NCBI RefSeq assembly: GCF_003946045.1
Contig: NZ_RHNW01000002.1
Span: 124,001-188,000 of the forward strand
Direction: 5' to 3'
DNA length: 64,000 nucleotides
DNA from: Levilactobacillus mulengensis
GTDB lineage: Bacteria > Bacillota > Bacilli > Lactobacillales > Lactobacillaceae
The notes under the pieces were generated by a model. The model saw only the letters and a program-made list of their open reading frames with translations. It searched no databases and was not told the DNA's origin. The position numbers were made by a program, and so were the translations under genes. Of the stretch, positions 8,929-51,303 are shown piece after piece. Position 1 is the stretch's first letter; each line of letters opens with the position of its first letter.

Positions 8929-8966
8929 TAAAAATAACCTCGCCCTTGTGGTGGGGTTATTTTTCT
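8929..8966 (+). terminator. Rho-independent terminator
   Basis: AAAATAACCTCGCC pairs with GGTGGGGTTATTTTT. Confidence 0.85.
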
Positions 8967-8985
8967 TTGGCCAAAATTAAGCTGA

Positions 8986-9048
8986 ATAAATACAAAGAGG
9001 CCCCTCAGATACCGTAACGTATCTAAGGAGCCCTTGTTTGTATTTTAA
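8986..9048 (-). terminator. Rho-independent terminator of the phosphatase operon
   Basis: AAATACAAA...TTTGTATTT encloses GGGCTCC and GATACGTTACGGTATC complementary arms, read on the minus strand after the histidine phosphatase gene. Confidence 0.75.
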
Positions 9049-9051
9049 AAG

Positions 9052-9675: not shown

Positions 9676-9686
9676 TTTCTCACTTC

Positions 9687-10631
9687 CTAATTTTCTCTCT
9701 CAAATTGCGTCTCAATCTTTCGTCGTCCCTGTTGCAGCAGGTAAATCGCCACAATCACCAGGACGGAACCAATAACTTCCGCAATCGTAATTTTTAAGCT
9801 CAGAAAAATAATGGATAAAATAAATGTCACCACCGGCTGCGTCGCGTCAACGATACTGATCACATCGGACGGCGCAAAGTGGGTACTGTACAGAATCAAT
9901 GAGAATGGCAAAATCGTTCCCACGATAATCACCGTGGCCATTGACCCAATCAGGGTCCCGGTAATTGGCGGCATATTCAGAAATACCGGATGGTACAGAT
10001 TGAAGAAAATTCCGGCAATAAACGTTCCCCAGCCTAACACAGTAATCGGTGCATGACCATAGTCGCGTACTAGTGGCCGCGGTAAAACCACGTAACAAGC
10101 CGCCGTGATCCCGGAACCAATCCCCCATAACAGGGAATTAACGGGGATGGCCAATTGGGTGATATCGCCCCGGGTAATCGCCAGAAAGACCCCGACTAGC
10201 GCGACCGCAAAGGCAATCAGATCACTACGCAGTGGTCGTTCGTGCTTGAATAGTAGGCTACCTAACACAATAAACAAGGGACTCAGATACTGCAGGATGG
10301 TGGCTGCGGCCGCATTTCCCGACTGCACCGCAATATAAAAGGTCAGGAGGTTGGCGCCCAACCCAATCAGGGCGTAGGCCAAGAGCCAGGACACTTCACG
10401 CCAGCTCTTAAAAATCGTGAACGTTTCTTTGCCATACAAAACCAGACTGATCAGCAACAAAATAACGCCGGCGCCCATCGTCCGGGCGGACAAGAACCAA
10501 CTGGTCGGAATCGATTGGCCTTGCGAAATAAACTGGAGGACCGTTCCGGAGACCCCAAACATGGCCGAAGCCACCGTGGCCCAGAAAATCCCCTTCATAA
10601 CGTTTTCCGTTGGTGCACCTACATTCTTCAA
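9687..10631 (-). CDS. EamA/DMT family transporter
   Basis: An integral membrane carrier of the drug/metabolite transporter superfamily with two EamA repeats and about ten membrane helices (for example FWATVASAMFGVSGTVLQF, ATILQYLSPLFIVLGSLLF, DATQPVVTFILSIIFLSLKITIAEVIGSVLVIVAIYLL). Members export amino acids or other metabolites. The start is uncertain: TTG 10631 has AAAGGA upstream, ATG 10598 (MKGIFWAT) has a weak site, and ATG 10664 has poor spacing. It is the first gene of an operon with the phosphatase. Confidence 0.86.
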   Translation of the reverse strand: MKNVGAPTENVMKGIFWATVASAMFGVSGTVLQFISQGQSIPTSWFLSARTMGAGVILLLISLVLYGKETFTIFKSWREVSWLLAYALIGLGANLLTFYIAVQSGNAAAATILQYLSPLFIVLGSLLFKHERPLRSDLIAFAVALVGVFLAITRGDITQLAIPVNSLLWGIGSGITAACYVVLPRPLVRDYGHAPITVLGWGTFIAGIFFNLYHPVFLNMPPITGTLIGSMATVIIVGTILPFSLILYSTHFAPSDVISIVDATQPVVTFILSIIFLSLKITIAEVIGSVLVIVAIYLLQQGRRKIETQFEREN

Positions 10632-10687
10632 AACACGATAAATCCTTTCTCTCTCATACCTCAAGTATGCATCATCATTTCGTTACT

Positions 10688-10924
10688 GGGATGGTGAAAA
10701 TAGTACGGATCTTTCGTTCCCGGCGGTGGGTTCAAGATGTCCTGCTGTGAGGAACGGTTTCAGCCTGAGAAGCGGGCTTTCACCTCGACTTTGAGCCTGA
10801 AAAACGGTCTCAAAGGTCGTCCCGTGCTCTAAACTGAGAAAATCACTCAGTTAAGACCACCGACACAGCTGGTCATCTTGACCCACCTCTGGTCACTGAC
10901 ACAGTTCAACTATTTTCACCATGC
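10688..10924. repeat. Palindromic intergenic repeat R5 (family 2, reverse, complete)
   Basis: GGATGGTGAAAATAGT pairs with ACTATTTTCACCAT. Inside are the reversed family-2 core, GGCGGTGGGTTCAAGATG...CATCTTGACCCACC, an ACTGAGAAAATCACTCAGT hairpin, and GCCTGAGAAGCGGGC/TTTGAGCCTGA arms. It lies upstream of the EamA gene. Confidence 0.78.
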
Positions 10925-11332
10925 CTACACTATCAATACCGAGCTTACTGTCACACAGCCATTTAGCTGGTTACACACTGACCCACTAATTCTCCCAGTC
11001 ACTTATCTTTTTCGATTAGTTTTTACCCGACACGATTAACATGAGTCGGGTCATAATTTTTATATTTTAACGGAAAACCATTAGAATTTGGCGGCAAAAA
11101 CGGGCAAATATCACCGTCTTCAAAAATTTATTTTGTTATATTACGAAGCGGGTCAACCGCCCGCACACCAGTCAACCAGCCTAACTTCCTGGTTGCTCAA
11201 TCATTTGCCATTCATGCAGGCATCTTCCAACATCCCCGTGAACAGCAAACGAACTAAATTAGCTTACCACTTCCAACCCAATTGGTCACTAACCAGGTCC
11301 GACCAATTACATGAGCCACCCCAAATTCCAGC
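10925..11332. other. Intergenic stretch without a supported gene
   Basis: About 400 bp. An inverted repeat ACCCGAC/GTCGGGT at 11025-11051 could be a weak terminator. A 91-codon open frame at 11088-11363 has no ribosome site or recognisable features and I do not call it. Confidence 0.5.
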
Positions 11333-11384
11333 AAAAAAGGCAAAATCACTGCGCCCAAACTGACGAAGCAATTTTGCCTTTCAA
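11333..11384 (-). terminator. Terminator of the metNI transcript
   Basis: On the minus strand AAAGGCAAAAT pairs with ATTTTGCCTTT, followed by T residues. It lies downstream of metI beyond repeat R6. Confidence 0.75.
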
Positions 11385-11435
11385 TTTAAAATTTAACAAC
11401 CAGTTATAATCCAAGACCTGCCAGTAAAGTTGACC

Positions 11436-11640
11436 ACGCAGCTAACAACTAGTATCAGCCGTGAGGTCGGCGAAAATTGGCTCAGCCGTGGGATTCTGCG
11501 AGGATTTTTCTCGCAGAATGGCGACTTTGAAACTCGTTCTTTGAGGTTCAAAGCGAGCTCGAAGACCGCTTCTCAGGCTTCGGGCGTCCTCCCCACCGCG
11601 TTCCGGCCAATTTTCGCCGACCGGTAAGGCGCGGTCGTCC
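11436..11640. repeat. Palindromic intergenic repeat R6 (family 1)
   Basis: GTCGGCGAAAATTGGC pairs with GCCAATTTTCGCCGAC. Inside are a CTGCGAG/CTCGCAG hairpin, CTTTGAAAC/GGTTCAAAG and CTCGAAGACC/GGCTTCGGG arms. Compared with R2, both sides of the outer stem have changed together, so pairing is kept. Confidence 0.78.
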
Positions 11641-11647
11641 ACCATTT

Positions 11648-12331
11648 CTAAGCAGTGTGGTCGACTTTACGGGCCCAGAGGTCACCGAGAAGCTGGATAG
11701 CAAACACAATCACCAGAATAATCAGCATTGCCAGAATCGTAACATCACTTTCGAAGCGGCTGTACCCGACGTTGATGGCCAAGTTCCCTAAGCCCCCACC
11801 ACCGATGGCACCGGCCATGGCGGTCAGGTCGATCAGACTGATCAACGTAAGCACGGACGAGCGGATGATGTCCGGCAGCCCTTCTCTGAGGTAGACGCGG
11901 AAAATAATGGCGATGGGACCGGAGCCAACTGATTCAGCGGCCTCAATCACCCCACGGTCAACTTCGGACAGGGCGTTTTGAATCTGCCGCGCGTAGAATG
12001 GCGCAGACCCAATCACCAACGGCACGATGGCGGCGGTGGTCCCGATAGCAGTCCCGACAATCAGCCGGGTCAGTGGTGCGATAACGGCCAGTAAGATCAC
12101 GAACGGAATCGACCGGCACAGGTTAACGATCTTATCAAGAATGTTATAAACAATCCGATTTTCCAGGATACCGCCGGGTTGGGTCACAATCAAGCCAACC
12201 CCGATCGCCATCCCCAGAATCCCCGCCACAATCGCGGTAAAGAACGTCATGTACAGCGTTTCGCCGGTGGCCTGAAGAAAATCACTCTTCATGGTCACAG
12301 CATTCGGAAAATATTTTGCAAACCAAGTCAT
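11648..12331 (-). CDS. metI: Methionine ABC transporter permease MetI
   Basis: Membrane subunit of the MetNIQ methionine importer, 227 residues. It has the MetI-type permease signature (LSEVDRGVIEAAESVGSGPIAIIFRVYLREGLPDIIRS, the EAA loop that contacts the ATPase), RSIPFVILLAVIAPLTRLIVGTAIG, and about five membrane helices. Its start codon follows directly after the metN stop, so the two genes are coupled. It is the last gene of metQ-metN-metI. Confidence 0.95.
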   Translation of the reverse strand: MTWFAKYFPNAVTMKSDFLQATGETLYMTFFTAIVAGILGMAIGVGLIVTQPGGILENRIVYNILDKIVNLCRSIPFVILLAVIAPLTRLIVGTAIGTTAAIVPLVIGSAPFYARQIQNALSEVDRGVIEAAESVGSGPIAIIFRVYLREGLPDIIRSSVLTLISLIDLTAMAGAIGGGGLGNLAINVGYSRFESDVTILAMLIILVIVFAIQLLGDLWARKVDHTA

Positions 12332-38800: not shown

Positions 38801-40615
38801 TTAATGCCGCCGCTGCCGATCATAGAATCCCAGCAGCGTAACAACCAATAAGGCGATGCCCGCTAAGGTCAAAGCCTGATTGATTGGCCGTTCACCCGTT
38901 TGTGGTAACGTGTGGCCGGCGTACTGCGGTGTGCTGCTAGCGTGATGCATAGTCGTCGCGCTACCAGTTACCGCTGCAGAACCAGTTCCAGTCGTGGCTC
39001 CGGCTGGCGACGTCGTAGTGCCCGTCGTTGTGCCAGTACCATTTGCCCCACTACCACCGGTTACGGGATGCTGCGTCGTCGCTGAAGTTCCTGGCTTGTG
39101 CGTGCTGGTTCCCGGTTTCTGTGGTTTTTGAGGGGTGGTTGGCTTCTGAGGTTTCTGTGGCTTCTCAGGCTTTTGTGGCTTTTGTGGCTTTTGTGGCTTT
39201 TGCGGTTTCTGAGGTTCCTGTGGATTAGTTGGCTTCTCAGGCGTCTGCGGTTCCGTTGGCTTTGGTGGGACAGTCACATGACCACCGTCACCGCCAGTTC
39301 CAGGAGTTTCTGGTGGTGTGGTACTACCGCCACCACCTGGGTTCTCAGGCGTCGTCACTGTACCACCACCGCCTGGCTCTCCAGGAGTTTCAGGTCCTGT
39401 CGTTCCGCCATCACCACCGTCAATGTCACCACTGTTTTCCCGTTCATCAGTCGCAAAGACCTCAACTGGGGTGGTTTGGCCCGCCACAATCTTAAATGGT
39501 ACCGGTGTTGGGTCCAACGCGAAGCCAGCTGGTGGTGTAATTTCAACGAATTCGTAATAGCCAGCGGGTAAGTCGGCGTAGGCAATTTGCCCTTGGGCAT
39601 CGGTCGTTAAGTAGTCCACCACGACCGTCCCATCGGCCTTTTGTAACCGGTAGATAGCACCGGGCAAGACTTCATCAGTTTTGTTATCCCGTTTCGTCAG
39701 GACAACTTCACCCGTGGCGTTCTGCCCATTACCACTACCGTTGCCGCCCCAAGCAATCTGCGACCCAACGGTTTTACCGTCCCAAGTGGCCTGGTTGAAC
39801 CAGCTCCCACCGGTATTTAGGGTGGGTTTGGTCTGATAGGTCATGTTCACAGCCGAGGTCACGTTATCAAATTTAAACGTCATCTCTCTGTCGTTATTCG
39901 TGACTTCAGGGGTGATGGTCCCAGTCGAGGTGAAGCTCCCATCGGCGCTATAGGTCCCGGTTTCGGCGTGGACTGACCCCGGGATGTAATCCTGGTCGCC
40001 TCCCAAGGTGTCAGTCACCACGGTTGGGCCCACGTTTTGACCACCAGGGTTAAACGCGATGTTCCAAGTCAACTTAGTTGGCACGCCGTTTTCATCCTTC
40101 TCGGCGATCCACCCAACCTTATTGATGCCCCAATCGAGGCCAGAGCCATTATTGTCCGTAGTTCCTTTAACGAAAAATTGAAGCTTGCCACCCCGGTTGG
40201 TGCCGACGCCAGCTAACGCATCATTGAACGTGATAGTCCCACTGGTTTGGCCAGCCTTAATGGTAAATGTCCCCACTTCATACCCCGCCGAGTCCACCAG
40301 TGCAATCGTCGTATCGTGTTCAGCGACGGACCCGGCTGGCAATTCAACAATCGCGGTATCGCCCGCAGCAATTGGCGCACCATCCTTGATGCCCCACTCG
40401 TACGCAACGGAATAAGTCGTCCACTTGTCCAGGGGACTCCCATTTTGAATCGGGTTACCGTGAACATCGGTAATTGTGGCGTCACTCCCACTTAAACCGC
40501 CTGTGGCGACGGTCATCCCGTGGGCTACAACGCTATCAAAGACTGCTCCCCCGCCAAGGAAGACGGCCAGAACTATAACGAAGCCCAGCACGACCTGATA
40601 GATCTTCCTGCGCAT
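38801..40615 (-). CDS. LPXTG-anchored adhesin with Cna-B domain
   Basis: A 604-residue cell-wall protein. An N-terminal signal/membrane segment (YQVVLGFVIVLAVFLGGGAVF) is followed by an adhesin-type Ig-fold region (ATITDVHGNPIQNGSPLDKWTTYSVAYEW..., residues about 35-290), then one Cna-B/SpaA domain (GEVVLTKRDNKTDEVLPGAIYRLQKADG...PAGYYEFVEITPPAGFAL). A Gly/Pro/Thr-rich stalk with PQKP repeats spans about residues 400-500. Sortase motif LPQTG is at 570-574, then a hydrophobic helix and RQRRH tail. GGAGGAGG precedes ATG 40615. It probably binds matrix or plant polymers. No sortase gene is nearby. Confidence 0.92.
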   Translation of the reverse strand: MRRKIYQVVLGFVIVLAVFLGGGAVFDSVVAHGMTVATGGLSGSDATITDVHGNPIQNGSPLDKWTTYSVAYEWGIKDGAPIAAGDTAIVELPAGSVAEHDTTIALVDSAGYEVGTFTIKAGQTSGTITFNDALAGVGTNRGGKLQFFVKGTTDNNGSGLDWGINKVGWIAEKDENGVPTKLTWNIAFNPGGQNVGPTVVTDTLGGDQDYIPGSVHAETGTYSADGSFTSTGTITPEVTNNDREMTFKFDNVTSAVNMTYQTKPTLNTGGSWFNQATWDGKTVGSQIAWGGNGSGNGQNATGEVVLTKRDNKTDEVLPGAIYRLQKADGTVVVDYLTTDAQGQIAYADLPAGYYEFVEITPPAGFALDPTPVPFKIVAGQTTPVEVFATDERENSGDIDGGDGGTTGPETPGEPGGGGTVTTPENPGGGGSTTPPETPGTGGDGGHVTVPPKPTEPQTPEKPTNPQEPQKPQKPQKPQKPQKPEKPQKPQKPTTPQKPQKPGTSTHKPGTSATTQHPVTGGSGANGTGTTTGTTTSPAGATTGTGSAAVTGSATTMHHASSTPQYAGHTLPQTGERPINQALTLAGIALLVVTLLGFYDRQRRH

Positions 40616-40837
40616 TGCAATCCTCCTCCAATCTAACACATGCTTTCCTAACTTCTTCCTGACTATCCGCAACCTTGTCCTCACTATAGGCCCAACACCG
40701 GCTTAGGGGTTAAGTGGTAAATTTGAAAATGGGGGGTTAAAAAATTCTCGGCCGCCAACCCGCAATTTAAAACGCCTTCCCATTGACGCGACCAGTAATT
40801 CTCCACCCACTCCTGCTGGTGGCACGCATTTTGCCCA

Positions 40838-40905: not shown

Positions 40906-42099
40906 CTAGTCGGCCGGTTGTTCCAGCTTGGCCTGCCGGTGTTGTTTGATGACGTGATTTAGCGTGACTGCCAGGACCAAGGAAATCGCCGCATACCCGG
41001 CCGCACCCCAGCTGATACGGTTCAGTCCGACGACGCCCAGCATACCAGAAGCCGTGGCCGACCCCAGGGAAATTCCAAAGTTAAAGAAGATGGAATTCAA
41101 CGAAGACGCCAGTACCGCCGATTGCGGGTAGTCCTGCTCAGCAATATTTAGGAAGTGAATCTGAATGGGTGAATTCAAAATCGTGACGATTAGGCTCATC
41201 ACTAACAGGATGGCCAGGCCGACAAACTTGTTGCCCAGACCAAATGGCAGGAGGGCTAACAAAATCACGTCCGCCACGTAGAAGCGCGGCATGATGCGCA
41301 ACCCATTGCGTTCCGCCAACATCCCCGAGAAACGGTTGCTGAGAATGCTCATGATTCCAATCAGGAACAGGAGCCAATTTAAACTGGTGGTGCTGAAACC
41401 TAGTGCGGTCGTCAGCAGTGGCCGAATGTAGGTGTAGTACGCGTACATCGTGGCCGCTGTGAACAGCACGAGCGCGATGCCCACGTAAACCCGTCGGTCC
41501 TTCAGTAAGACCAACTGGTTCTTCACGCTGCCTTGTACCTGTTCCACCTCGCGCGGCAATAGCCAGCCCAACAGAACACAGGTGATGGCACTGATGACGG
41601 AGATCAGGTAGAAAGCGTCGTGCCAGCTATAACTGGTACTGATGGCCGTCCCAATCGGCACCCCAAAGACGGAGGCAATACTGAAGCCAGCAAAGATCCA
41701 GGAGACCAGGCTCGCCCGCTTTTCCCGCGGCGCAATCGCACTAGCAAACGTCATGATGAGGGAAATAATTGCCCCCGCCACCACGGCCGTCAGAACCCGG
41801 GACAGCAACAGGACCGGATAGCTCATCGCCAAGCCGCTCAACGTATTCCCGATTAAAAAGATCACCATCAGGGTCATCAGTGTTTTGTAGCGGCTAAAGC
41901 GGTTGGTTAAAATCGTGATGAACGGTGTGCTAACAGCATACACCGTCGCAAAGATAGTCACCAAATACCCCACGGTGGCGACGGGAATCTGGTATTCCTT
42001 AGCGATGTCGGACAGGACCCCGACCACGATAAATTCGTTGCACCCCAACATGAAGGCGACTAGGACAAACACAATGGCTTGCCAACGATACTTGTTCAT
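40906..42099 (-). CDS. MFS transporter, DHA1 (AraJ/YdhP-like)
   Basis: A 397-residue, 12-helix carrier (MLGCNEFIVVGVLSDIAKEY..., FITILTNRFSRYKTLM, REKRASLVSWIFAGFSIASVFGVPIGTAI). It is strongly similar across its whole length to the protein at 42609-43799, so they arose by tandem duplication. ATG 42099 follows GAGGAA; the track upstream is inside repeat R14. Such carriers export sugars or drugs; the substrate is unknown. Confidence 0.88.
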   Translation of the reverse strand: MNKYRWQAIVFVLVAFMLGCNEFIVVGVLSDIAKEYQIPVATVGYLVTIFATVYAVSTPFITILTNRFSRYKTLMTLMVIFLIGNTLSGLAMSYPVLLLSRVLTAVVAGAIISLIMTFASAIAPREKRASLVSWIFAGFSIASVFGVPIGTAISTSYSWHDAFYLISVISAITCVLLGWLLPREVEQVQGSVKNQLVLLKDRRVYVGIALVLFTAATMYAYYTYIRPLLTTALGFSTTSLNWLLFLIGIMSILSNRFSGMLAERNGLRIMPRFYVADVILLALLPFGLGNKFVGLAILLVMSLIVTILNSPIQIHFLNIAEQDYPQSAVLASSLNSIFFNFGISLGSATASGMLGVVGLNRISWGAAGYAAISLVLAVTLNHVIKQHRQAKLEQPAD

Positions 42100-42139
42100 T
42101 TTCAATTCCTCTGATTTCTTAAAACTTGCGAACAAATCA

Positions 42140-42422
42140 AAACTGGTGTCTGCACTGTGATGATGAAAACGAACTTGACCGTCGCTGTTCGTTCCCGGCA
42201 GCGAATTCAAGGTCGCCAGCTGTGGGGAACGGTTCCAGCCTGAGAAGCGGTCTTCCACCTCGCCTTGAAGCCTGGAAAACCACCAGTCTCCAAGGTCGTC
42301 CCGTGATCTAAGCTGAGAAAAACACTCAGCTAAGAACACCGACACAGCTGGCGACCTTGATTCGCCTCTGGTCACTAACCTTGATCACTCATTTTCATCA
42401 TTCCGTCGGCCAACATCAGTTT
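42140..42422. repeat. Palindromic intergenic repeat R14 (family 2, reverse, complete)
   Basis: AAACTGGTGT...ATCAGTTT ends, TGATGATGAAAACGA/TCATTTTCATCATT inner arm, GAATTCAAGGTCGCCAGCTGTG/CACAGCTGGCGACCTTGATTC long stem, and AGCTGAGAAAAACACTCAGCT hairpin. It lies between the two tandem MFS paralogues. Confidence 0.8.
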
Positions 42423-42608
42423 CGTCCGTTCGCACGCGAATGATTTTCTACTGTTCATCCCTACTTCTCGATTTTTTTGGAATAACAGTAACTTTACCTT
42501 TAAGATTACACTATCTCGCATCAAAATATTAGGGGGACGACTCAGGTAATCCCTTACATTTGCAAATTATTTTTTGAGCATTCTTTAGCCGCGCTAACCA
42601 CCGATTGC
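42423..42608. other. Spacer between the MFS paralogues
   Basis: AT-rich stretch of 186 bp; no gene or clear hairpin seen. Confidence 0.4.
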
Positions 42609-43799
42609 TTAGTCTTCCTTAACCGCAACCCGCCGCCGATGCGCCGCGTTGACTCGATTTAACATGACGGCAACAATCAATGACAGAACGGCAAATACCG
42701 TGGCGCCATAGCCCAGGCTTAGGAGTCCACCGCGAACCAGCACGACCGAGGCTGTGGCCGACCCTATTGAGATTCCCACGTTAAAGAAAATGGCGTTCAG
42801 CGAAGAAGCCAGGAGCGTTGCCTGCGGGTAATCCACCTCCGCCACGTCCAGGAAATGAATTTGAATCGGTGAATTTACCACGGAAATGATGAGGGTCAAC
42901 ACTAAAAACAAGCCAAAACCCGTCACCCGATTACCCATCGCGATTGGCAATAATAATAGCAAGATAATGTCTACCACGTAAAAGCGTGGCAGCGTGGTCA
43001 AACCATCCCGTTCCGCAACGGTTCCGGACAGCCGATTGCCCAGAATGCTCATGAGTCCCAGCGTAAACAATAACCAATTTAACGCCGTGGTCCCGAAGCC
43101 CAGTCCAGTTGTGAGTAGCGGTCGAATGTAAGTGTAATACGCGTACAGCGCCGCCGCAGAGAAGAGAATCAGAACGGCCCCCAGGTAAACGCGCTTGTCC
43201 GTTAATAAGACCAGCTGGTCCTTGATACCACCCGCGGCTTTGGGGAGATTCCGCGGCAAAATAACCGCCATGACGACACACGTTAGCAGGCTCAAAATAG
43301 AAATCAGATGAAAGGCCACGTGCCAGCTGGTCGCGGTACTGATGGCCACCCCAACGGGTACCCCAACGACGGAGGCAATGCTGAAACCGGCTGCTAGCCA
43401 AGAAATCAGCATCGCCCGTTTATTCCGGGGCGCAATGTCGTTGGCAAAGACAATAATCAACGACTCAATGGCCCCAGCAACCGCTGCCGTCAGCATCCGG
43501 GACACCAAGAACCACCCGTAGCTGGTCGTAAAGCCACTCCAAGTGTTGCCCACTAGGAAGATGAGCAGTAAGACCATCAGCGTTTTGTACCGGTCGAAAC
43601 GGTTGGCAAAAATCGTGATCAGCGGCGTGCTAACCGCATAGACAATGGCAAAGATGGTCACCAGGTAGCCGGCCGTTGCGACGGTCACCCGCAGTGAACG
43701 GGCAATGTCGGAGATGACCCCGACCACCATAAATTCGTTACAGCCCAGCATAAACGCCACGAGCACCAAGGCACTGGCCTGCCAGCGATACTTGTTCAT
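42609..43799 (-). CDS. MFS transporter, DHA1 (AraJ/YdhP-like), paralogue
   Basis: A 396-residue, 12-helix carrier (MLGCNEFMVVGVISDIARSLRVTVATAGYLVTIFAIVYAVSTPLITIFANRFDRYKTLMVL). It shares most of its sequence with the downstream paralogue, including NSPIQIHFLDVAEVDYPQATLLASSLNAIFFNVGISIGSATAS. GAGGAA precedes the ATG. Divergence of the N- and C-terminal tails suggests different substrates or regulation. Confidence 0.88.
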   Translation of the reverse strand: MNKYRWQASALVLVAFMLGCNEFMVVGVISDIARSLRVTVATAGYLVTIFAIVYAVSTPLITIFANRFDRYKTLMVLLLIFLVGNTWSGFTTSYGWFLVSRMLTAAVAGAIESLIIVFANDIAPRNKRAMLISWLAAGFSIASVVGVPVGVAISTATSWHVAFHLISILSLLTCVVMAVILPRNLPKAAGGIKDQLVLLTDKRVYLGAVLILFSAAALYAYYTYIRPLLTTGLGFGTTALNWLLFTLGLMSILGNRLSGTVAERDGLTTLPRFYVVDIILLLLLPIAMGNRVTGFGLFLVLTLIISVVNSPIQIHFLDVAEVDYPQATLLASSLNAIFFNVGISIGSATASVVLVRGGLLSLGYGATVFAVLSLIVAVMLNRVNAAHRRRVAVKED

Positions 43800-43978
43800 A
43801 TTCGTTCCTCAAATCAACAATAGTTCCTTTCCTCCTAGCGTACACTATTTCGCCCGCTGTCGTCAGTAAAAGAAAAGAGCTTCCGCCAAAAGATTTGTCG
43901 AAAACTCTGCCTGTTACTATAAGAATCGATAGATTAAGACTATCTTGATCTTTAAACTAGTAATATTTTGTCCTCCAG

Positions 43979-44019
43979 TTGAACTAGCACGACACTTCCG
44001 CTACACTTTAGGTAAGTGT
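43979..44019 (+). promoter_or_regulatory. Promoter of the AraC regulator gene with inverted repeat
   Basis: TTGAAC (43979) and TACACT (44002) are 17 bp apart. ACACTT (43992) and AAGTGT (44014) form an inverted repeat over the -10 region, a possible autoregulatory site. Confidence 0.55.
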
Positions 44020-44079
44020 TACCGGATACATCACTGATTTAGCAATGAGTTTACTAGTTCTTATTAGGGAGGTCTTTTT

Positions 44080-45174
44080 ATGTCTAATTCTCTGCCCAAA
44101 CAAAAAAATTATAGTAATCTCGCCCATGCATTGGCTAAATTTACTAGTTTGACACAAATTAATGCACTGTGTTACGACTTCAACGGAATCTTGCTAAAAG
44201 ATGATGCTGTCTTTCTCAATGACTCCGCCATCAAACAGAACTTGGCTGATGAGGATCTGAAACATTTTGCCATTTTTCCAGTCACTCTCGGCACTCAGCT
44301 CTGGGGATCAATCATGTGTGACGCCAAGAATGTTTCCAAAAAACGCTTGATTTTGGCTCAAAGCTATCTGACGGATATGCTTCGAGAATCCTTTATTGGC
44401 ACCACTGGTTCACTCACTATCTGGGACGCACTAACGACAAACCAAATCAAAAAAATCAATTACTTTCATAATTTCTTCCCGCTCTCTGATCAATCTGATT
44501 CTTTATCCGCAACCTCACCAACGTCGGGGTTAGCACCAATCAATGGTCACACGATTGGTAACTATGATGCGTACCATAGTATCCGACTCGCTATGGCCTA
44601 CATCCATAAAAATATCCAGCAATCCTTCTCCCTAAACGATGTGGCTGAAGCATCCTACCTTTCGCCATCTTATCTCAGCCGTCTCTTTAAAAAATATCTC
44701 CACGTCAACTTTGTCGAGTACGTCAATAATCAAAAAATTGCTCTGGCTCAGGAAAAACTGGCACTGACCCTCATCCCCATCAACCAAATTTCAGCCCAGC
44801 TTGGGTTCTCACAAACCAGTTACTTCACAAAAATATTTAAACGAAAAACGCATACTACGCCTTCCGAATTTAGACAACATAATCATGCCATTCAAAAGGT
44901 CTACACAATCCCACGTGATTTAGATTGGGATGACTCCTCTTCTATTTACGATGTCACCAAGAACTACTTCGAGCGCCATGATATTAATTACCAAACCGAC
45001 TCTGATGACGACGGCGCTGCTTACCTAACCCGAATTGGTAACTTAACCGACAAGGAGGACTCGCAAGGATGGGTCTACACCGTTGACGGCCAACAGCCTT
45101 CAGAATCCGCCAATGAAGTTGATGCCAAGAATAAATCCGTTATCCAATGGGTTTACATGAACTACGCTACCTAA
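44080..45174 (+). CDS. AraC-family regulator with C-terminal DUF4430-like domain
   Basis: A 364-residue regulator with three parts. Residues 10-105 look like a compact GAF/PocR-type sensor (FTSLTQINALCYDFNGILL ... HFAIFPVTLGTQLWGSIMCDAKNVSKKRLILAQSYL). Residues 166-268 are the paired AraC HTHs (SLNDVAEASYLSPSYLSRLFKKYLHVNFVEY and INQISAQLGFSQTSYFTKIFKRKTHTTPSEF). Residues 283-364 resemble DUF4430, with GWVYTVDGQQP and VIQWVYM aligning to GWKYRVNG and KVHWYFT in the convergent gene product at 45246. This fusion is unusual. The regulator faces the ECF operon and probably controls it. The gene is more AT-rich than its neighbours. GGGAGG precedes the ATG. Confidence 0.88.
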   Translation: MSNSLPKQKNYSNLAHALAKFTSLTQINALCYDFNGILLKDDAVFLNDSAIKQNLADEDLKHFAIFPVTLGTQLWGSIMCDAKNVSKKRLILAQSYLTDMLRESFIGTTGSLTIWDALTTNQIKKINYFHNFFPLSDQSDSLSATSPTSGLAPINGHTIGNYDAYHSIRLAMAYIHKNIQQSFSLNDVAEASYLSPSYLSRLFKKYLHVNFVEYVNNQKIALAQEKLALTLIPINQISAQLGFSQTSYFTKIFKRKTHTTPSEFRQHNHAIQKVYTIPRDLDWDDSSSIYDVTKNYFERHDINYQTDSDDDGAAYLTRIGNLTDKEDSQGWVYTVDGQQPSESANEVDAKNKSVIQWVYMNYAT

Positions 45175-45179
45175 ATACC

Positions 45180-45222
45180 ACAAAAGCCCCAGTCCCGAAA
45201 AAAGGAACTGAGGCTTTTTTCA
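45180..45222. terminator. Bidirectional terminator
   Basis: AAAAGCCCCAGTCCC pairs with GGAACTGAGGCTTTTTT between the regulator and the ECF operon. Confidence 0.85.
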
Positions 45223-45245
45223 TTTCACCGTTGGCTAAGTCGAGT

Positions 45246-45962
45246 TTAATATCCCTTAGTCGTAAAGTACCAGTGAACCTTATCGCCATTCTTAATCGCT
45301 CTTTTGTTGGCAGCCTTGTCGATGAACTTGCCATTGACCCGGTACTTCCAACCACTACCGACCTTGACGTCGTTTTGTGCTAAACCATTCACGCTGCTGA
45401 CAAAGACGACGGCACCATTTTGGTAATCCAGTTTCAGTTTGGAGGACTGAAGTACGGTAAATGCATTTGATTGACTGTTAATGGTGACGTTACCGTCAAA
45501 GAAGGTCTTCTTGTAGCCAGTGACCACTAAATGGGCCTTCTTGGCCGTCTGCGTCTTCTTGGCAGCTTTCTTAGCCGCTGCGTGATGGGTCGTGGTCGTA
45601 GCAGCCTTTGGCTTGGTTGCCCGCCGATGAGTAGTCGCCGAACTAGCCTTCGGTGTTGAACTTGCCTTGCTGGCAGCCGCCTGGCTAGTTTGATGGCTCG
45701 TTGCTGCGGCCGAGCTGGCGTTAGTGGCGTGATGTGCCGTTGCAGCTTTCTTCGTCGACGAACTGGCCCGCTTATGATGCGCCTTCTTAGCTACTGAACT
45801 GCTAGCCTTGCTGGTAGATTGGGCAGACGAGGAACTACTCGTCGCAACCGTATCTGGTGCCGAAGTCGCCTGACTCTGATGACTTTGTTGTAACGCGAGT
45901 GCGCCGCCAATCACCAAAATCGTGACGACGACCGCCGCGATGATCCATCTTGTCTTTTTCAT
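45246..45962 (-). CDS. Membrane-anchored DUF4430 (transcobalamin beta-domain-like) protein
   Basis: A 238-residue surface protein. An N-terminal membrane anchor (WIIAAVVVTILVIGGALAL, no lipobox) is followed by about 110 residues of low-complexity Ser/Ala/Lys/His/Thr that can span the wall. Residues 150-238 form a DUF4430 domain (FTVLQSSKLKLDYQNGAVVFVSSVNGL... GWKYRVNGKFIDKAANKRAIKNGDKVHWYFT), the fold of the C-terminal beta domain of transcobalamin and intrinsic factor. It is the last gene of the ECF operon, 24 bp after the alpha-barrel gene. I infer a ligand-capturing role, likely for a corrinoid. Confidence 0.85.
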   Translation of the reverse strand: MKKTRWIIAAVVVTILVIGGALALQQSHQSQATSAPDTVATSSSSSAQSTSKASSSVAKKAHHKRASSSTKKAATAHHATNASSAAATSHQTSQAAASKASSTPKASSATTHRRATKPKAATTTTHHAAAKKAAKKTQTAKKAHLVVTGYKKTFFDGNVTINSQSNAFTVLQSSKLKLDYQNGAVVFVSSVNGLAQNDVKVGSGWKYRVNGKFIDKAANKRAIKNGDKVHWYFTTKGY

Positions 45963-45986
45963 GTTGACTACTCCTTAATCCAACGC

Positions 45987-47036
45987 TTATTTGAACGTGT
46001 AAACTAACTTCTTGTTGTAGTTACCGTTGTTGGCAGCCGTTGCAGCTAAGCTAACTTGACCGTAAGCCAAGACCATGCTGTAAGCATCCTTCACGGAACC
46101 ATCGGCCTTAACGTAACTGAACATCGTCTTCAGTGGCGTTGCGGTTTGGCCCTTCTTTAAAGCCGTCTTGTTCACAAACTTAAAGGACGTCTTGGTAGAA
46201 GATAAGGCTAAGATTCCTTCGGCAGTTGAGTTGGCATTCGGATTTTGCTTGCCCTGGTACGTGTAACCAAAGGCCCCACTCTTGTAGATGTTCTTCTTCA
46301 GGTAACTGCGGCCGGCAATTTCGGCCTTAGTAACCTGCTTGTTGGTGCTCTTACCCATCATCAAAGCCGTCACCGCCGTCGCGGTCGTGTCACTATCAAC
46401 ACTAGCAACGGTGTTGTTGTAAGCCCACCCCTTGTTGGCTTGTTGGCTCTTAGCAATCTTCAGGCTTAAGGAAGCCTTGGAGAATTTCGCCTTGCTAGGC
46501 TTCTTAAAGGTCTTGTTGGAAGAAACGGCAACCAGCGCTTGGCTTTGGACGTTAACCGTTTGTTTGTTCATGGATTGCTTGTACAACGTGTTGACCAAGT
46601 TCAGGTTCTTCTTGGCGCCGGCTGGCTTGTACTTGGTTGGATTAACTCCAATTGCCTGCAGGCCGATGATGGCCGTGGCCAACGTTGCGGGATCACTCTT
46701 GCTGGAAACAATCAGGTTTTTCTTAACCAGTTTCTTGTTGGCCTTGGTAAATTTGTACCCCTGCTTCTTCAAGCCTAACAGGAAGTCGGCGTAACCGGAA
46801 GCGGCCCCCGTCGTCTTGAAAGCGGTCTTGCTAAAGATCTTGGCGGTGCCATTGACCCCGTCTTTATTTTGTTTCATCATCTTTTTGGCATATGTATACA
46901 TCGCCTTTTTCTTGCTCTTTTGCGAGCTTTTGGAAGCGACCTTGATGCTAGCGGCATTAACGTCCATAACGGGTACGACTGCCCCTAAAGCCATTACGGC
47001 GGTCAATGAAGCTGCGATTAACTTATTATTCAACAT
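45987..47036 (-). CDS. Secreted alpha-barrel protein (prenyltransferase/transcobalamin-like)
   Basis: A 349-residue exported protein; the signal peptide ends VMDVNAAS. It consists of helical repeats of the alpha6-alpha6 barrel type seen in terpenoid cyclases and in the N-terminal domain of transcobalamin. QW-like repeats are visible at 194-227 (SQQANKGWAYNNTVASVDSD...ATAVTAL) and 243-280 (YKSGAFGYTYQGKQNPNANSTAEGILAL). Catalytic DxDD or DDxxD motifs of cyclases are not seen, so it is probably a binding protein. It lies between the ECF S-component and the DUF4430 protein. In animals its fold and DUF4430 are one chain that binds cobalamin. Confidence 0.85.
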   Translation of the reverse strand: MLNNKLIAASLTAVMALGAVVPVMDVNAASIKVASKSSQKSKKKAMYTYAKKMMKQNKDGVNGTAKIFSKTAFKTTGAASGYADFLLGLKKQGYKFTKANKKLVKKNLIVSSKSDPATLATAIIGLQAIGVNPTKYKPAGAKKNLNLVNTLYKQSMNKQTVNVQSQALVAVSSNKTFKKPSKAKFSKASLSLKIAKSQQANKGWAYNNTVASVDSDTTATAVTALMMGKSTNKQVTKAEIAGRSYLKKNIYKSGAFGYTYQGKQNPNANSTAEGILALSSTKTSFKFVNKTALKKGQTATPLKTMFSYVKADGSVKDAYSMVLAYGQVSLAATAANNGNYNKKLVYTFK

Positions 47037-47051
47037 GAAGTATTTCCCCTT

Positions 47052-47756
47052 TTATAAAATATTGTATTTGGTAATTAGACGATCCATCAGCTTACGCCAA
47101 GGTTGATACAAAAGCAGTAAACTAATCCCGTTCGTTGCGGCATGCATAGCATCAAACATGAGGCTGGCTGCAAACGACAGGAAGAAACTGGCGGGCCGCA
47201 ATGGCCGAACGTAGGCCAGGGCGTACCAGAGGTCCATGATCCAGCCGAACCAGAGGCCCCACAGAGCCCCCCAGACGACCATCACCCAAAGGTTGTTCTT
47301 CAACTGGGTGCGACCGAGAAGTCCCGTGGTCAGGCCCATGAGCCCCCAAGCCAGCATTTGCCAAGGTGTCCACGGTCCTTGACCCAAAAATAGATTGGAG
47401 ACCAGGGCCATCATCGACCCGGAAACGAAGCCGAGCTCCGGTCCCAGGCTGACGGCACTGACGATGACCACAAAACTAGTCAACTGCACGTTGGGAATTG
47501 CAGCTAACGGCACGCGCCCCATAACGCCTAGGGCCACAATGACCGCTAAAAAGACTAACAATCGCGTCCCCATTTGCCGTTTCTCAAAGTGCCAGTAAGC
47601 CGGCAGGAGACTGACGGCCAGACAGGCAAAGCTAAAAATTACAAAATGATGACCCTTTAACAGGAGCATCCCCGCTAATAGAACCAGGATTAAGCCCACC
47701 GGCACAACCAGATTCCAATTGTTTTTCCACCATCCACGCTGTACGATTTTTCTCAC
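47052..47756 (-). CDS. ECF transporter S component (CbrT-like candidate)
   Basis: Substrate-binding membrane protein of an energy-coupling factor importer, 234 residues, about six helices. Marked features are GRVPLAAIPNVQLTSFVVIVSAVSLGPELGFVSGSMMALVSNLFLGQGPWTPWQMLAWGLMGLTTGLLGR and a C-terminal helix SLMFDAMHAATNG. The GQGPWTPWQM block is characteristic of the S-component family that includes the candidate cobalamin carrier CbrT as I recall it. It starts 4 bp after the ATPase stop. Substrate is inferred, not read. Confidence 0.82.
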   Translation of the reverse strand: MRKIVQRGWWKNNWNLVVPVGLILVLLAGMLLLKGHHFVIFSFACLAVSLLPAYWHFEKRQMGTRLLVFLAVIVALGVMGRVPLAAIPNVQLTSFVVIVSAVSLGPELGFVSGSMMALVSNLFLGQGPWTPWQMLAWGLMGLTTGLLGRTQLKNNLWVMVVWGALWGLWFGWIMDLWYALAYVRPLRPASFFLSFAASLMFDAMHAATNGISLLLLYQPWRKLMDRLITKYNIL

Positions 47757-47760
47757 CTCC

Positions 47761-49407
47761 TTAATCGGTTATTTGTGTCACGTCTTGACTAAATAATGCG
47801 GTTGGGACCTGTTGCCGAAGCAGCCGGTTGACGGCCGTCGTGGACAAGAAGTTCTCCGTGAAGAATTGCCGAGTTGGTTGTGGCGCCGTCAAACACCCGT
47901 TAAACATGAACGTGCACGTGTCCGCGAATTCTGCGCAGAAGTCCATGTCGTGACTGGCCATAATCAGCGTTAGCCCGGCTTGGTGTTTCGTCTGCAAGAT
48001 ACGCCCAACCAGCAATTTCGTCGCCGGATCCAAGCCCTTAGTCGGCTCGTCTAGCAGCAGGACTTGTGGCCGCGTAATCAACGCCAAGGCTAAGCCCAGA
48101 AGCTGTTGCTGGCCACCACTGAGGTCAAATGAATTCTGCTCGGCCACCGCTTGCAATTGAAACGTTGCCAACGCCTTTTGCACCCGGTCGGTCACGTCGC
48201 CGGATGCCAGCTTGGCTTGGGCCGTTAACTCCTCAGTGACCGTGTCCCCGTTGAACTGCTCCGTGGGATTCTGTGACAAATAACTCAATTGCCGCAGTCG
48301 GTCACGATTTTTCATTTTCCAAATAATCTGCTGATTCAAGCGGACCTTGCCGTGTTGTGGCTTGCGCAGACCCGCCAGCACCGTTAACAGCGTCGACTTG
48401 CCGGACCCATTTTTGCCAATGATGGCTAGCCAACTCGCTGGCGTGACGGTCAGGTCCAGCTGATGTAAAATGTCGCCGGTCGTTGGGTACCGTAGCGAGA
48501 CGTGTTGCGCCTCGAAGTGCCAGTCCGCTGGCCGCGCAATGGCCTCGGGTTCCGGTAACGTCGCTGCTTTAAACCGCCAATCTCGCTGGGTAATCAGCCG
48601 CCGACCCGCCGTCACTGTCAACGGCAACGGTGTCGCATCCAGGTGATGGGCCAGAAAAAAATGGGGCACGGCCGGCACAAACGGCTGGAGCTTGGGAGCA
48701 GCCTGCATGCGCCGTAATCCCGTCGAGACATCCCCGTCATACGTGAGGTGCCCGTCTTCCAGGAGAATCAGCCGGTTGGCTAGGGCCAACACCCGATTCA
48801 ACCGGTGCTCCGTCAATACGATGGTGATGGCAAGCTCATCGTGCACCTGTTGTAAAATGTTCAAAAAGTTCTGGGCTGTCGTCGGATCCAACTGGGCGGT
48901 GGGCTCATCCAGGAGAATCACCTGGGGCTTCAGCGCTAGGACCGAGGCCAAATTAACCAACTGGAGCTGCCCACCCGAAAGGTCCTGAATCGGCATGTGG
49001 AGAAACTGATTTAACCCTAGGAAATTAGAAACCTCAGCGATGCGACTGTTCATTTCGGCCGTCGAATAACCTAAGTTTTCTAAGGGAAACGCCAACTCCT
49101 CGATCACCGTGGCCATGATGGGTTGGACTTGCGGGTCCTGGGCGACGTAGCCCAACTGTTGCGCACTGACGGTGCTGGTGAGGTCGGCCACTGGCGTTCC
49201 CTGATACAACACGTCGCCACGCTGTTCACCAGCCGGCTTGAGTTCCGTCTTCAACTGCTTCAGTAAGGTGGTCTTGCCACTCCCGGTCGCCCCCACGACG
49301 GTGACGAACTCGCCGGCAGCGATTTTCAGGGAAATGTCCACCAGCGTTGGCTGTGTCTGCCCGGCATATGTAAATGATAAATTTGAACAGTTAATCAATT
49401 CTCGCAT
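47761..49407 (-). CDS. ECF transporter ATPase, fused A-A'
   Basis: A 548-residue protein with two ABC ATPase domains in one chain, the dedicated type of ECF ATPase (as in YkoD). The first half has Walker A GATGSGKTT, signature LSGGQLQLVNLAS and Walker B VILLDEPTAQLDP; the second has GKNGSGKST, LSGGQQQLLGLALAL and VLLLDEPTKGLDP. Both sites look intact. GGGGGG precedes the ATG and the start overlaps the T-component gene by 13 bp. It energises uptake by the neighbouring S and T proteins. Confidence 0.94.
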   Translation of the reverse strand: MRELINCSNLSFTYAGQTQPTLVDISLKIAAGEFVTVVGATGSGKTTLLKQLKTELKPAGEQRGDVLYQGTPVADLTSTVSAQQLGYVAQDPQVQPIMATVIEELAFPLENLGYSTAEMNSRIAEVSNFLGLNQFLHMPIQDLSGGQLQLVNLASVLALKPQVILLDEPTAQLDPTTAQNFLNILQQVHDELAITIVLTEHRLNRVLALANRLILLEDGHLTYDGDVSTGLRRMQAAPKLQPFVPAVPHFFLAHHLDATPLPLTVTAGRRLITQRDWRFKAATLPEPEAIARPADWHFEAQHVSLRYPTTGDILHQLDLTVTPASWLAIIGKNGSGKSTLLTVLAGLRKPQHGKVRLNQQIIWKMKNRDRLRQLSYLSQNPTEQFNGDTVTEELTAQAKLASGDVTDRVQKALATFQLQAVAEQNSFDLSGGQQQLLGLALALITRPQVLLLDEPTKGLDPATKLLVGRILQTKHQAGLTLIMASHDMDFCAEFADTCTFMFNGCLTAPQPTRQFFTENFLSTTAVNRLLRQQVPTALFSQDVTQITD

Positions 49408-50291
49408 AACTTATATCCCCCCTCACCGACTAATGGTAATCCCACAAACGCTAGCAATGGGAGGAGTAACCAACCATCATGACTGCCCAAAATGGTAAAT
49501 CTAGTGACATCACCAGTCCAGCCCCATCCTTGAAAACGGAGAATCATGGTCAGGCCGAAGATAACTAGGCTACCGACAATAAACCAGCCGTCCATAGCCT
49601 GCCAACGAAACGTCTGGTAGTGACTGCGCTTCTTGGCACCAAATCCACGGGCCTCCATCAAGACCGCCGTTTCCATGGCTGACGAAACGGAATCAATCAA
49701 TAGGATTCGCAGCAACTGCCCCGTCTTCTGCAACCGCTCACGCCAACTGCCCTCGTTCAACACCACGTTGCGGGTCTTCTGGAGCATCAATAGTCGGCGG
49801 AATTTCTGAGTAAAGAGGTTGACCATTCGTAGCGAAATCGTCAGGAGCATGGCCAAACGTGGCACAACTGGGAATAATAGATAACTCAGCTTGGGCGTGG
49901 TGATGACCCCATTGAAGAGCACGAACGCCAGAATCATGCCACCCAACGAGAGGGCCATGGTCACCCCGTACAGTGTCGCGGTCTGCGTGATGCGAAAGGT
50001 CCAACCGCCCAACTGCCAGGACCACAACGTCTTGGCCCCCGTCTGATTTAAAATCACGTTAAAGACAAAAATCATCAGCATCAGTGAACCGACACCCTTT
50101 AGCGTTCCCCAAACCTTCTGGCGACTGAAGTACCAACTACATAAGACGGCTAACCCAACAAATAAAACGCCCGTTACTAATAAATGGTTAAACACCAGTA
50201 GGAGAACAAATAGTTCAACAAAATAAATTGTCGCCGTCAAAGGATGCAAGCGACTAAAGAAATTCAATTCGTCAAAGATCCCGACTCTCAT
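49395..50291 (-). CDS. ECF transporter transmembrane component T
   Basis: Scaffold membrane subunit of the ECF importer (CbiQ/EcfT family), 298 residues. It has RLHPLTATIYFVELFVLLLVFN, SYLLFPVVPRLAMLLTISLRMVNLFTQKFRRL, and the coupling helix SAMETAVLMEARGFGAKKRSHY with the MEARGF motif. ATG 50291 follows GGTGGG; an upstream ATG at 50312 has a poor site. It is the first gene of T-AA'-S-alpha barrel-DUF4430. Confidence 0.92.
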   Translation of the reverse strand: MRVGIFDELNFFSRLHPLTATIYFVELFVLLLVFNHLLVTGVLFVGLAVLCSWYFSRQKVWGTLKGVGSLMLMIFVFNVILNQTGAKTLWSWQLGGWTFRITQTATLYGVTMALSLGGMILAFVLFNGVITTPKLSYLLFPVVPRLAMLLTISLRMVNLFTQKFRRLLMLQKTRNVVLNEGSWRERLQKTGQLLRILLIDSVSSAMETAVLMEARGFGAKKRSHYQTFRWQAMDGWFIVGSLVIFGLTMILRFQGWGWTGDVTRFTILGSHDGWLLLPLLAFVGLPLVGEGGYKLCEN

Positions 50292-50312
50292 GTTTGCTTC
50301 CCACCTATTCAT

Positions 50313-50567
50313 TATGAAACCGTTTTCTAGTATTCTATGATAGCATCTCAGTTATTTCACAATCCCCAATATCTTGTTAAGGTTATCCTTTTTAGTACTA
50401 CGAGTTGTGTTTTATTGCTATTTTTATATTTTCTTGTCACTACTGGTGGAAATTATACCAGGAATGTTGCTGCCGCGTTTAGCCAGGTCGACTGAACTGC
50501 TCCCTTGACGACCGCGTCGCCCCCATCACGGCGTCCTTTCCCCAAGTCACTTTTATTTTCACCGCAC
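50313..50567. other. Upstream region of the ECF operon
   Basis: AT-rich 5' half, no open frame. I looked for a cobalamin riboswitch and saw neither a B12-box-like GCCACTG context nor a terminator, so control is probably through the AraC protein. Confidence 0.45.
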
Positions 50568-50568
50568 G

Positions 50569-50613
50569 CAAAAAGCCAGTCCCTCTCCCGCTACTGTGCG
50601 TGAAGGACTGACT
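50569..50613 (-). terminator. Terminator of the ABC exporter-TetR operon
   Basis: Minus-strand AGTCAGTCCTTC pairs with GAGGGACTGGCT followed by TTTTT. Confidence 0.78.
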
Positions 50614-50624
50614 TCTGATTAAGG

Positions 50625-51263
50625 TTATTTTGAAATGGTGCGCACGATTTGCTCACTGATTATCTGGAGGTCTTGTTGTTCCCCACCCACAATGCTGGGG
50701 GCAAAGTTGGACTCGATGATATAGCCGACCAATTGGCCCGCAATGATGCGAATGATTCCCGGACCATCAACGTCGTCACGTAATTCTCCCGTCTCACGAA
50801 ACATCTTCAAAAGTTCTGCCAGGAAATTAAAGTCATCAACCGTCAACAATTTGCCAAACAAATCACGCATTTCCTGGCTAATCATCATTTCCATGGCCAG
50901 AATCTTAATCGCTTCTTTATTGCCCGTTATGAAGGCATATCGGTCGTGCACCATGAAGCTCACCATCTCTGGCAGACTTCCGCAGGCACGAATCCCATCA
51001 AAAAACGCATCCCGGTAATGGGGAAATAGATGTTCCATGATGGGTTCCACGATGGCCAACAGGAGATCCTGTTTCGTGTGAAAATACTTAAAGATGGTAG
51101 CTTGACTGATGCCCGCCTTTTCCGCTATTTGAACGGTCGAGGTGCCGTCGAATCCTTGCTCCGAGAAGAGCGTCAGCGCCGCCACCAACGCAGATTTCTT
51201 CCCCTTTGGCATTTTTTCGTGGTCTAGCCATTGGCGGTAACTACTAAATACATCCGGTTCCAC
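50625..51263 (-). CDS. TetR-family regulator
   Basis: A 212-residue regulator with HTH KSALVAALTLFSEQGFDGTSTVQIAEKAGISQATIFKYFHTKQDLLLAIVEPIM and a helical effector domain. GTG 51263 has AAAGGG 8 bases upstream; a GTG three codons earlier is too close to it. It is the last gene after the ABC exporter pair, separated by repeat R15, and probably represses the operon through the two palindromes at 53670-53714. Confidence 0.87.
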   Translation of the reverse strand: MEPDVFSSYRQWLDHEKMPKGKKSALVAALTLFSEQGFDGTSTVQIAEKAGISQATIFKYFHTKQDLLLAIVEPIMEHLFPHYRDAFFDGIRACGSLPEMVSFMVHDRYAFITGNKEAIKILAMEMMISQEMRDLFGKLLTVDDFNFLAELLKMFRETGELRDDVDGPGIIRIIAGQLVGYIIESNFAPSIVGGEQQDLQIISEQIVRTISK

Positions 51264-51303
51264 ACGCTTCACCCTTTCTAACGCTTTTGAACTTGATCTT
51301 TTA

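Follow-up and report, generated by a model that had tools for sequence, protein, structure and literature searches.

Capture of nanomolar corrinoids by Gram-positive bacteria before import by an energy-coupling factor (ECF) transporter is, as far as we know, largely untested, and a locus of Levilactobacillus mulengensis raises the question of whether the two halves of a transcobalamin, encoded as separate surface proteins, might serve this purpose. The locus lies in a 64,000-nucleotide stretch of a 3.1 Mb genome whose close named relatives belong to Levilactobacillus (NCBI RefSeq assembly GCF_003946045.1, contig NZ_RHNW01000002.1, positions 124,001 to 188,000 of the forward strand; hereafter the window, in whose coordinates positions are given). 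On the minus strand, positions 45246-50312 hold a five-gene operon encoding, in order, an EcfT protein, a fused A-A' ATPase, an S component, a secreted protein and a DUF4430 protein. We consider it probable that this operon is a corrinoid uptake system, in which a secreted toroid and a tethered DUF4430 protein form a receptor that hands its ligand to a CbrT-like S component for ECF import, the ligand being vitamin B12 and probably cobinamide. The corrinoid role is well supported, because the S component matches CbrT, DUF4430 matches haptocorrin, the secreted protein can be placed in a toroid family, and DUF4430 co-occurs with B12-dependent enzymes.

In the mechanism that we propose, the secreted toroid and the membrane-tethered DUF4430 protein would close on a corrinoid from opposite sides, like the alpha and beta domains of transcobalamin, and a long stalk would keep the loaded pair close to the membrane. 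The corrinoid would pass to the CbrT-like S component, powered by the operon's own EcfT and fused ATPase, and inside the cell an adenosyltransferase would charge it for diol dehydratase and class II ribonucleotide reductase. An adjacent AraC-type regulator, which carries a beta domain of the DUF4430 type inside the cell, would probably read the corrinoid level. That the two chains assemble, bind a ligand and hand it to the S component, and that the regulator senses it, we infer from what was computed directly, namely the homology of DUF4430, the relation of the S component to CbrT, the toroid membership, the gene order and the linkage to B12-dependent enzymes.

The operon and its importer

With the open reading frames (ORFs) listed over the window and its proteins searched with Pfam and NCBIfam models, all five genes were found where a preliminary description, made from the sequence alone, had placed them, Pfam naming four; only the start of EcfT differs, as its ORF reaches 50312 and the start given earlier, 50291, is an inner ATG. 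Per the ORF listing, neighbouring genes overlap or are spaced by 4-24 bases on a single strand. The first gene (49395-50291, or to 50312 with the longer start) encodes EcfT, a CbiQ-type transmembrane protein (Pfam CbiQ, E 1.5e-9), and the second (47761-49407) a fused EcfA-EcfA' ATPase that matches Pfam ABC_tran twice and NCBIfam ECF_ATPase_1 at 327.5 bits (cut-off 315). The genes for T, AA', S, barrel (the secreted toroid protein) and DUF4430 protein stand in the same order on one strand in 18/18 named relatives (17 Levilactobacillus or near kin and one Lentilactobacillus), among which barrel identity ranges from 53 to 96%. An ECF module with its own T, A and S genes in one operon is thus present in the window and in all 18, an arrangement termed group I.

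The S component (47052-47756) matches Pfam ECF S components at 7e-12. When it was compared with solved chains by phmmer, the best match was CbrT (6fnp_A, E 5.4e-11) and the next 4hzu_S (0.38), with residues 64-227 aligning to residues 9-172 of 6fnp_A. It also shares 33% identity with the CbrT-like S component of locus L069, which itself matches 6fnp_A at 4.3e-58. On sequence, then, the window S component lies nearer to CbrT than to other solved S components, even if generic S-component models class it as riboflavin type or, below cut-off, as folate type. An N-terminal stretch of approximately 63 residues, in which one or two additional hydrophobic segments lie, falls outside the 6fnp_A match and could serve as a docking site for the surface pair.

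CbrT of L. delbrueckii, predicted in 2009 according to PMC5997447, belongs to a characterised Gram-positive B12 ECF system: ECF-CbrT, the transporter of entry 6FNP, carries out ATP-driven uptake of cobalamin and cobinamide (PMC5997447). The two S components belong to the same family (164 aligned residues). However, the ECF module used by CbrT also serves other S components (PMC5997447), whereas the window operon has its own EcfT and fused A-A' ATPase, an S component with an N-terminal extension of approximately 55 residues relative to CbrT, and an added toroid protein. The cbrT gene cluster reads nrdJ-cbrS-cbrT-pduO (PMC5997447). In three other lactobacillar loci (L068, L069 and L070) the order is nrdJ (assigned by the model for the B12-dependent ribonucleotide reductase, RTPR), a small DUF4430 gene (128-147 aa), a CbrT-like S component and PduO, with no toroid there; in L069 the small protein matches DUF4430 at 1.8e-19 and PduO is confirmed. 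As the DUF4430 gene fills the slot between nrdJ and cbrT in all three, we infer that cbrS encodes a DUF4430 protein.

The two surface proteins

The last gene of the operon (45246-45962) encodes a protein of 238 residues with an N-terminal anchor, a stalk of approximately 115 residues composed to 86% of Ser, Thr, Ala, Lys or His, and a C-terminal DUF4430 domain (residues 166-234). This domain scores 64.7 bits in Pfam against a cut-off of 23.8 (E 1.1e-17), and a profile of 24 bacterial DUF4430 domains (A3) found its best matches in the Protein Data Bank (PDB) in haptocorrin (4kki, 6.3e-4) and RUMGNA_00854 (0.0079), followed more weakly by intrinsic factor (0.086) and transcobalamin-2 (0.13). By these computations DUF4430 is a homologue of the beta domain of the B12 carriers, and the family assignment given in the preliminary description holds.

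Both surface proteins carry one N-terminal hydrophobic segment (residues 6-24), in agreement with the export signals noted earlier, and because both are without Cys, neither is a lipoprotein. The DUF4430 protein has no AxA-type signal-peptide end beside its hydrophobic segment and is on that account read as membrane-anchored. The other protein (45987-47036, 349 residues) has such an end, read by eye, and no anchor, and appears to be secreted. Among relatives of the DUF4430 protein, other means of anchoring can be seen: LPXTG-like ends in L065 and L066 (Gram_pos_anchor weak in the former, just under cut-off in the latter), C-terminal hydrophobic ends and a lipobox-like Cys, by eye, in L060 and L061, and SLH domains in L085 and L087.

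The secreted protein was placed through its relatives. A profile of 15 barrel segments including that of the window (A4) matches squalene-hopene cyclase at 6.5e-12 and other toroid proteins in the PDB, and a narrower profile of 16 sequences (A2) matches only a terpene cyclase (0.0039). Terpene cyclase activity was rejected, as the protein is secreted and encoded in an importer operon and the cyclase matches reflect a common repeat fold. A2 was then aligned by hhalign with A6, a set of five toroid segments from four genomes (L085-L088) of other families of the phylum Firmicutes, at 98.6% and E 5.5e-16. The A6 segments had been picked by a search of 398 genomes of the phylum with Pfam Cobalamin_bind (PF01122), which 12 genomes match at E 0.1 (best 3.9e-5 and 6.2e-5) and none over the cut-off; with this model the window barrel was unmatched at E 1 and its own genome at E 0.1. 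In L085, L086 and L088 the PF01122-matched chain continues into a DUF4430-like stretch (confirmed by Pfam in L085, by eye in the other two), and in L087 the match lies in a 393-residue gene adjoining a 940-residue chain with a toroid and a Pfam-confirmed DUF4430. One A6-source chain combines PF01122 (0.00044, below cut-off), DUF4430 and SLH.

We also generated a structure model of the window barrel from 19 relatives, at low confidence (mean pLDDT 55.3). Foldseek matched it best to cobalamin-bound rat transcobalamin (TM-score approximately 0.3, E 0.022, probability 1.00), and further matches are mainly other alpha/alpha-toroid proteins. As such, the secreted protein is likely a member of the toroid family, on the strength of the A4 and hhalign comparisons with Foldseek adding a little, and its specific likeness to the transcobalamin alpha domain is suggested by the model. 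The alpha-barrel partner proposed in the preliminary description thereby gains support. Viral contigs were scanned as well and yielded no relative of the barrel.

The preliminary description had both halves as adjacent genes, and this pairing extends across the 301 Lactobacillaceae genomes that we surveyed, as the operon order does among the named relatives. When DUF4430 genes are classed by open-frame length rather than by domain call, 39/41 of mid size lie within 6 kb of a barrel. Conversely, a DUF4430 gene is found within 6 kb of 45/48 barrels, or of 50/55 if the seven match rows left off that list (second matches and fragments, five of them within 6 kb) are added. The three unpaired barrels are one in genome G204 that is 6.2 kb away, one on contig C9 of G088, a contig without a DUF4430 match, and a fragment at a contig start in G261.

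This pairing bears on an explanation that we consider improbable, by which the operon imports corrinoids but its surface proteins do not form one receptor, DUF4430 working with the S component alone and the toroid having another task, such as binding the cell wall or a different corrinoid form. The loci L068-L070, with their small DUF4430 proteins beside RTPR, a CbrT-like S component and PduO, lend it weight, as DUF4430 can therefore probably act without a toroid, and so does the divergence of the window barrel, which has no direct matches. Against it stand the close pairing of barrels with DUF4430 genes, the occurrence of toroid and DUF4430 in one chain in L056, L058 and other Firmicutes, and the argument of a 2007 paper that the two domains bind B12 jointly (PMC1796856).

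Several variants were seen among the relatives. L056 (7750-10074) and L058 (2418-4763) encode single chains of 774-781 residues with a toroid at the N-terminus and DUF4430 at the C-terminus, DUF5776 lying between the two in L058; the toroid parts match another lactobacillar toroid by tblastn at 2.7e-20 and 4.2e-19, respectively. Both chains adjoin a separate toroid gene, such that fused and split forms occur together. L065 (4290-6755) encodes an 821-residue LPXTG-like surface protein with two tandem toroid domains, beside a DUF4430 gene and an ECF module, and in L097 (6026-7592) a pdu operon is preceded by genes for a toroid and a short DUF4430 protein, with no adjacent ECF module.

The likeness of the window pair to transcobalamin, haptocorrin and intrinsic factor consists of a DUF4430/beta-grasp beta domain with a toroid-family partner. 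In contrast to the animal carriers, which are one secreted chain and work with an endocytic receptor, the window encodes two chains, one of them membrane-tethered, adjoining an ABC-type importer. The basic principle had already been predicted, since Burroughs and others described in 2007 a transcobalamin-like clade of the SLBB superfamily in low-GC Gram-positives, fused to toroids, and predicted toroid+SLBB surface proteins in CbiO/CbiQ-like operons to be B12 scavengers and AraC-SLBB fusions in Lactobacillus to be B12-responsive regulators (PMC1796856). That prediction concerned toroid-SLBB fusions, however, and the portion of the paper available mentions neither a separate toroid gene nor an S component. 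The statement in the preliminary description that no characterised Gram-positive system of this design was known accordingly gives way to a characterised CbrT (PMC5997447) and a scavenger predicted in 2007 (PMC1796856). An annotation from L. rhamnosus (Lacticaseibacillus), "Additional lipoprotein component of putative cobalamin ECF transporter", likewise ties a lipoprotein to such a transporter, and the same source names a DUF4430 protein encoded near an rtpR gene; in the text available this is an annotation only and involves no toroid (PMC9963975). In the open-licence literature we found no separate toroid gene paired with a DUF4430 gene, no dedicated CbrT-type module adjoining such a pair, and no link between the PocR extension discussed below and DUF4430. 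What is new here is the split receptor with a dedicated CbrT-type importer, together with the genome-wide test, and the locus would put to the test what was predicted in 2007 about how the animal B12 carriers arose.

Linkage to B12-dependent enzymes and the ligand

Among the 301 genomes, 83 have DUF4430 (132 matches in all). All 63 genomes with RTPR, counted over its cut-off, are among these 83, as are 27 of the 29 with diol dehydratase and 32 of the 33 with a barrel. Either RTPR or diol dehydratase is present in 71/83 genomes with DUF4430 vs 2/218 without it (Fisher 1.6e-53, a test that takes no account of kinship); this table omits below-cut-off RTPR matches in three genomes, with which the first figure becomes 73/83. 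Within the window's genus (15 genomes), the same seven have DUF4430, a barrel and one of the two enzymes, giving 7/7 vs 0/8. With CbrT as the best solved match of the S component, these counts favor the corrinoid specificity put forward in the preliminary description.

At closer range, RTPR is found within 5 kb of 25/54 small DUF4430 genes, a count based on 28 of the 68 RTPR rows and unchanged when all 68 are used, and therefore about half of the small genes are not near it. DUF4430 frames of AraC size lie within 20 kb of diol dehydratase in 17/28 cases, two of the 28 (G027 and G064) being lipoprotein-like, and 12/29 diol dehydratase genes have no such frame that near. In the stretch fetched around the operon of the 18 named relatives we found pduA in ten, diol dehydratase in four, PduO in three and RTPR in one; at least one of these flanks the operon in 12/18 and none in 6/18. 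L037, L039, L047 and L049 share the order importer operon, glpF, regulator, pdu operon, and L109 brings together nrdJ-pduO, a complete importer operon, glpF, an AraC regulator and pdu. In four loci genes were located by tblastn, namely those for T in L053, L058 and L109 and those for DUF4430 and CbrT in L093.

The same genome holds the operon twice: T, AA', S, barrel and DUF4430 recur on another contig, C9 (positions 1-12000; L053), where a transposase-like gene separates them from genes of the CobS and CobC type, an AIRS-like protein and a further ECF S component. In the related operon of L063 the same four kinds of gene follow on. The labels CblT and CblS would apply to parts of this set, for which the searches support only an ECF S component, AIRS (just under cut-off), CobS and CobC. 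The L053 copy is perhaps a corrinoid-salvage version of the operon.

These neighbours suggest another explanation, again an unlikely one in our view, namely that cobinamide or some other incomplete corrinoid, and not cobalamin, is the specific ligand of receptor and transporter, and it is in keeping with it that CbrT itself also takes cobinamide (PMC5997447). Nevertheless, the 18 flanks gave no match when queried with CobS and the AIRS-like protein, and pdu genes, RTPR or PduO flank the operon in 12/18, as given above. That the ligand is no corrinoid at all (but a peptide, a glycan or a vitamin of the folate or riboflavin kind), as the generic S-component models and the broad ligand range of the SLBB superfamily (PMC1796856) might suggest, is very hard to credit with CbrT as the nearest solved S component and with DUF4430 and B12-dependent enzymes co-occurring strongly in both directions.

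Other results count against the operon as a corrinoid uptake system with a split receptor. Alone, the window barrel has no family match in Pfam, NCBIfam or PDB sequence searches (Pfam gave only a chance-level SLAM match, 0.87), the toroid profiles did not find the transcobalamin alpha domain (at E 10 for A2 and E 1 for A4), and the barrel model is poor, with no Foldseek match reaching E 0.001 and TM-scores near 0.3. Phylogenetically, the genome counts are not independent of one another. Diol dehydratase occurs without DUF4430 in two genomes, and 12 of the 83 genomes with DUF4430 lack both enzymes, such that the association is no strict rule. In the nine of these 12 whose loci were inspected (all but G062, G119 and G191), a CbrT-like S component adjoins DUF4430: G058, G068, G089, G097 and G236 have a small DUF4430 beside it, one with PduO, and G025, G027, G064 and G093 have the toroid-DUF4430-ECF operon. 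With regard to expression, no Rfam family reached its gathering score in the window, so that no corrinoid riboswitch was seen, with one chance match (E 1.3) in 43700-51300; the gene of the AraC-type regulator is convergent with the operon, not divergent from it; and a shared operator of the EcfT and pdu promoters is not claimed because 19, 20, 7 and 99 of 300 shuffles did as well as or better than the four local alignments.

The AraC-type regulator and control of expression

The convergent gene on the plus strand (44080-45174) was passed over in the preliminary description, together with its DUF4430, although it lies within the interval described there (44080-50291). It encodes a regulator with an AraC helix-turn-helix (HTH; Pfam HTH_18, 3.8e-19) followed by a C-terminal DUF4430 domain (PF14478, 1.7e-10) that exceeds the curated cut-off. 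With no hydrophobic segment, the protein is read as cytoplasmic. Its structure model has a mean pLDDT of 77.6, with approximately 82-91 per block of ten in the DUF4430 part. AraC-type proteins come first among the matches of the model, and haptocorrin, transcobalamin and 5no0, the isolated beta domain of human transcobalamin, occupy ranks 47-50; the DUF4430 domain superposes on 5no0 over 72 columns (2.2 A, E 0.026, probability 1.00). In an alignment of 14 sequences the DUF4430 part is conserved along with the HTH, with G330, W331, D336, G337 and W357 invariant.

Against NCBIfam PocR the regulator scores 96.6 bits, far below the cut-off of 500, and we therefore call it PocR-like rather than a PocR equivalog. 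The window itself is without a pdu gene. In 13/18 named relatives a relative of the regulator lies in the fetched flank, with pduA also there in 10 of the 13. A second AraC-DUF4430 gene of the same genome stands beside a pdu operon, its DUF4430 being borderline (25.1 and 21.9 bits against the cut-off of 23.8). Two other regulators that end in DUF4430 are that of L. brevis CD0817 (L039, 7e-10), encoded next to pdu, and that of L103 (8.1e-11), encoded next to cob/cbi genes. The regulator of L. brevis ATCC 14869 (L041, 7864-8802) stops before DUF4430 while a gene for a shell-like protein remains nearby, possibly through decay of the pdu region in that strain.

In L. reuteri, glycerol use and B12 synthesis are under the control of Lreu_1750, a PocR-like regulator of the AraC type, whose C-terminus, like that of its L. 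brevis homologue, was noted in 2011 to extend approximately 60 residues beyond that of Salmonella PocR (PMC3162504). The window regulator resembles it in being AraC-type with a C-terminal extension, Lreu_1750 being a regulator of pdu and B12 genes, and differs in that the extension of Lreu_1750 is not identified as DUF4430 in the accessible text of PMC3162504. By extrapolation from the regulators above, the extension of the Lreu_1750 type may be DUF4430. This domain would offer an explanation for the extension of a Lactobacillus regulator that governs glycerol use and B12 production.

More tentatively, and with rather more doubt than belief, we suggest that one beta-grasp family could serve the whole corrinoid economy of these bacteria: a split transcobalamin would assemble only when a corrinoid bridges toroid and DUF4430, and would dock on a CbrT-type importer, while the domain of the PocR-like regulator would measure the corrinoid and set the expression of pdu and importer. 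On that view, the split form would show the two domains of the animal carrier at work before or apart from their fusion. The locus offers a small, well-bounded test case in food bacteria (relatives of L. brevis), comprising two soluble domains, an importer and a regulator, with a readout available through the B12-dependent glycerol/diol dehydratase.

The pattern TGAAA-N-CGTTT occurs in 4/14 upstream regions (over all patterns the highest count was 5, and shuffles peaked at 3-4); it resembles the catabolite-repression element cre. A block upstream of EcfT (50312-50360, and 2395-2725 in L039) is common to the nearest relatives and contains a catabolite-repression-like sequence near the start codon, with a similar one ahead of pduA. 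Between the convergent DUF4430 and regulator genes lies a terminator-like stem of 15 pairs (45182-45218), one of five terminator-like sites in a scan in which shuffles gave a mean of 7.3, such sites being no commoner than in shuffles. Further along the window are a gene for an LPXTG-type surface protein with collagen-binding-like and SpaA domains (38801-40684) and two tandem, mutually similar MFS-type transporter genes (40906-43799), with similar genes near the locus in L041.

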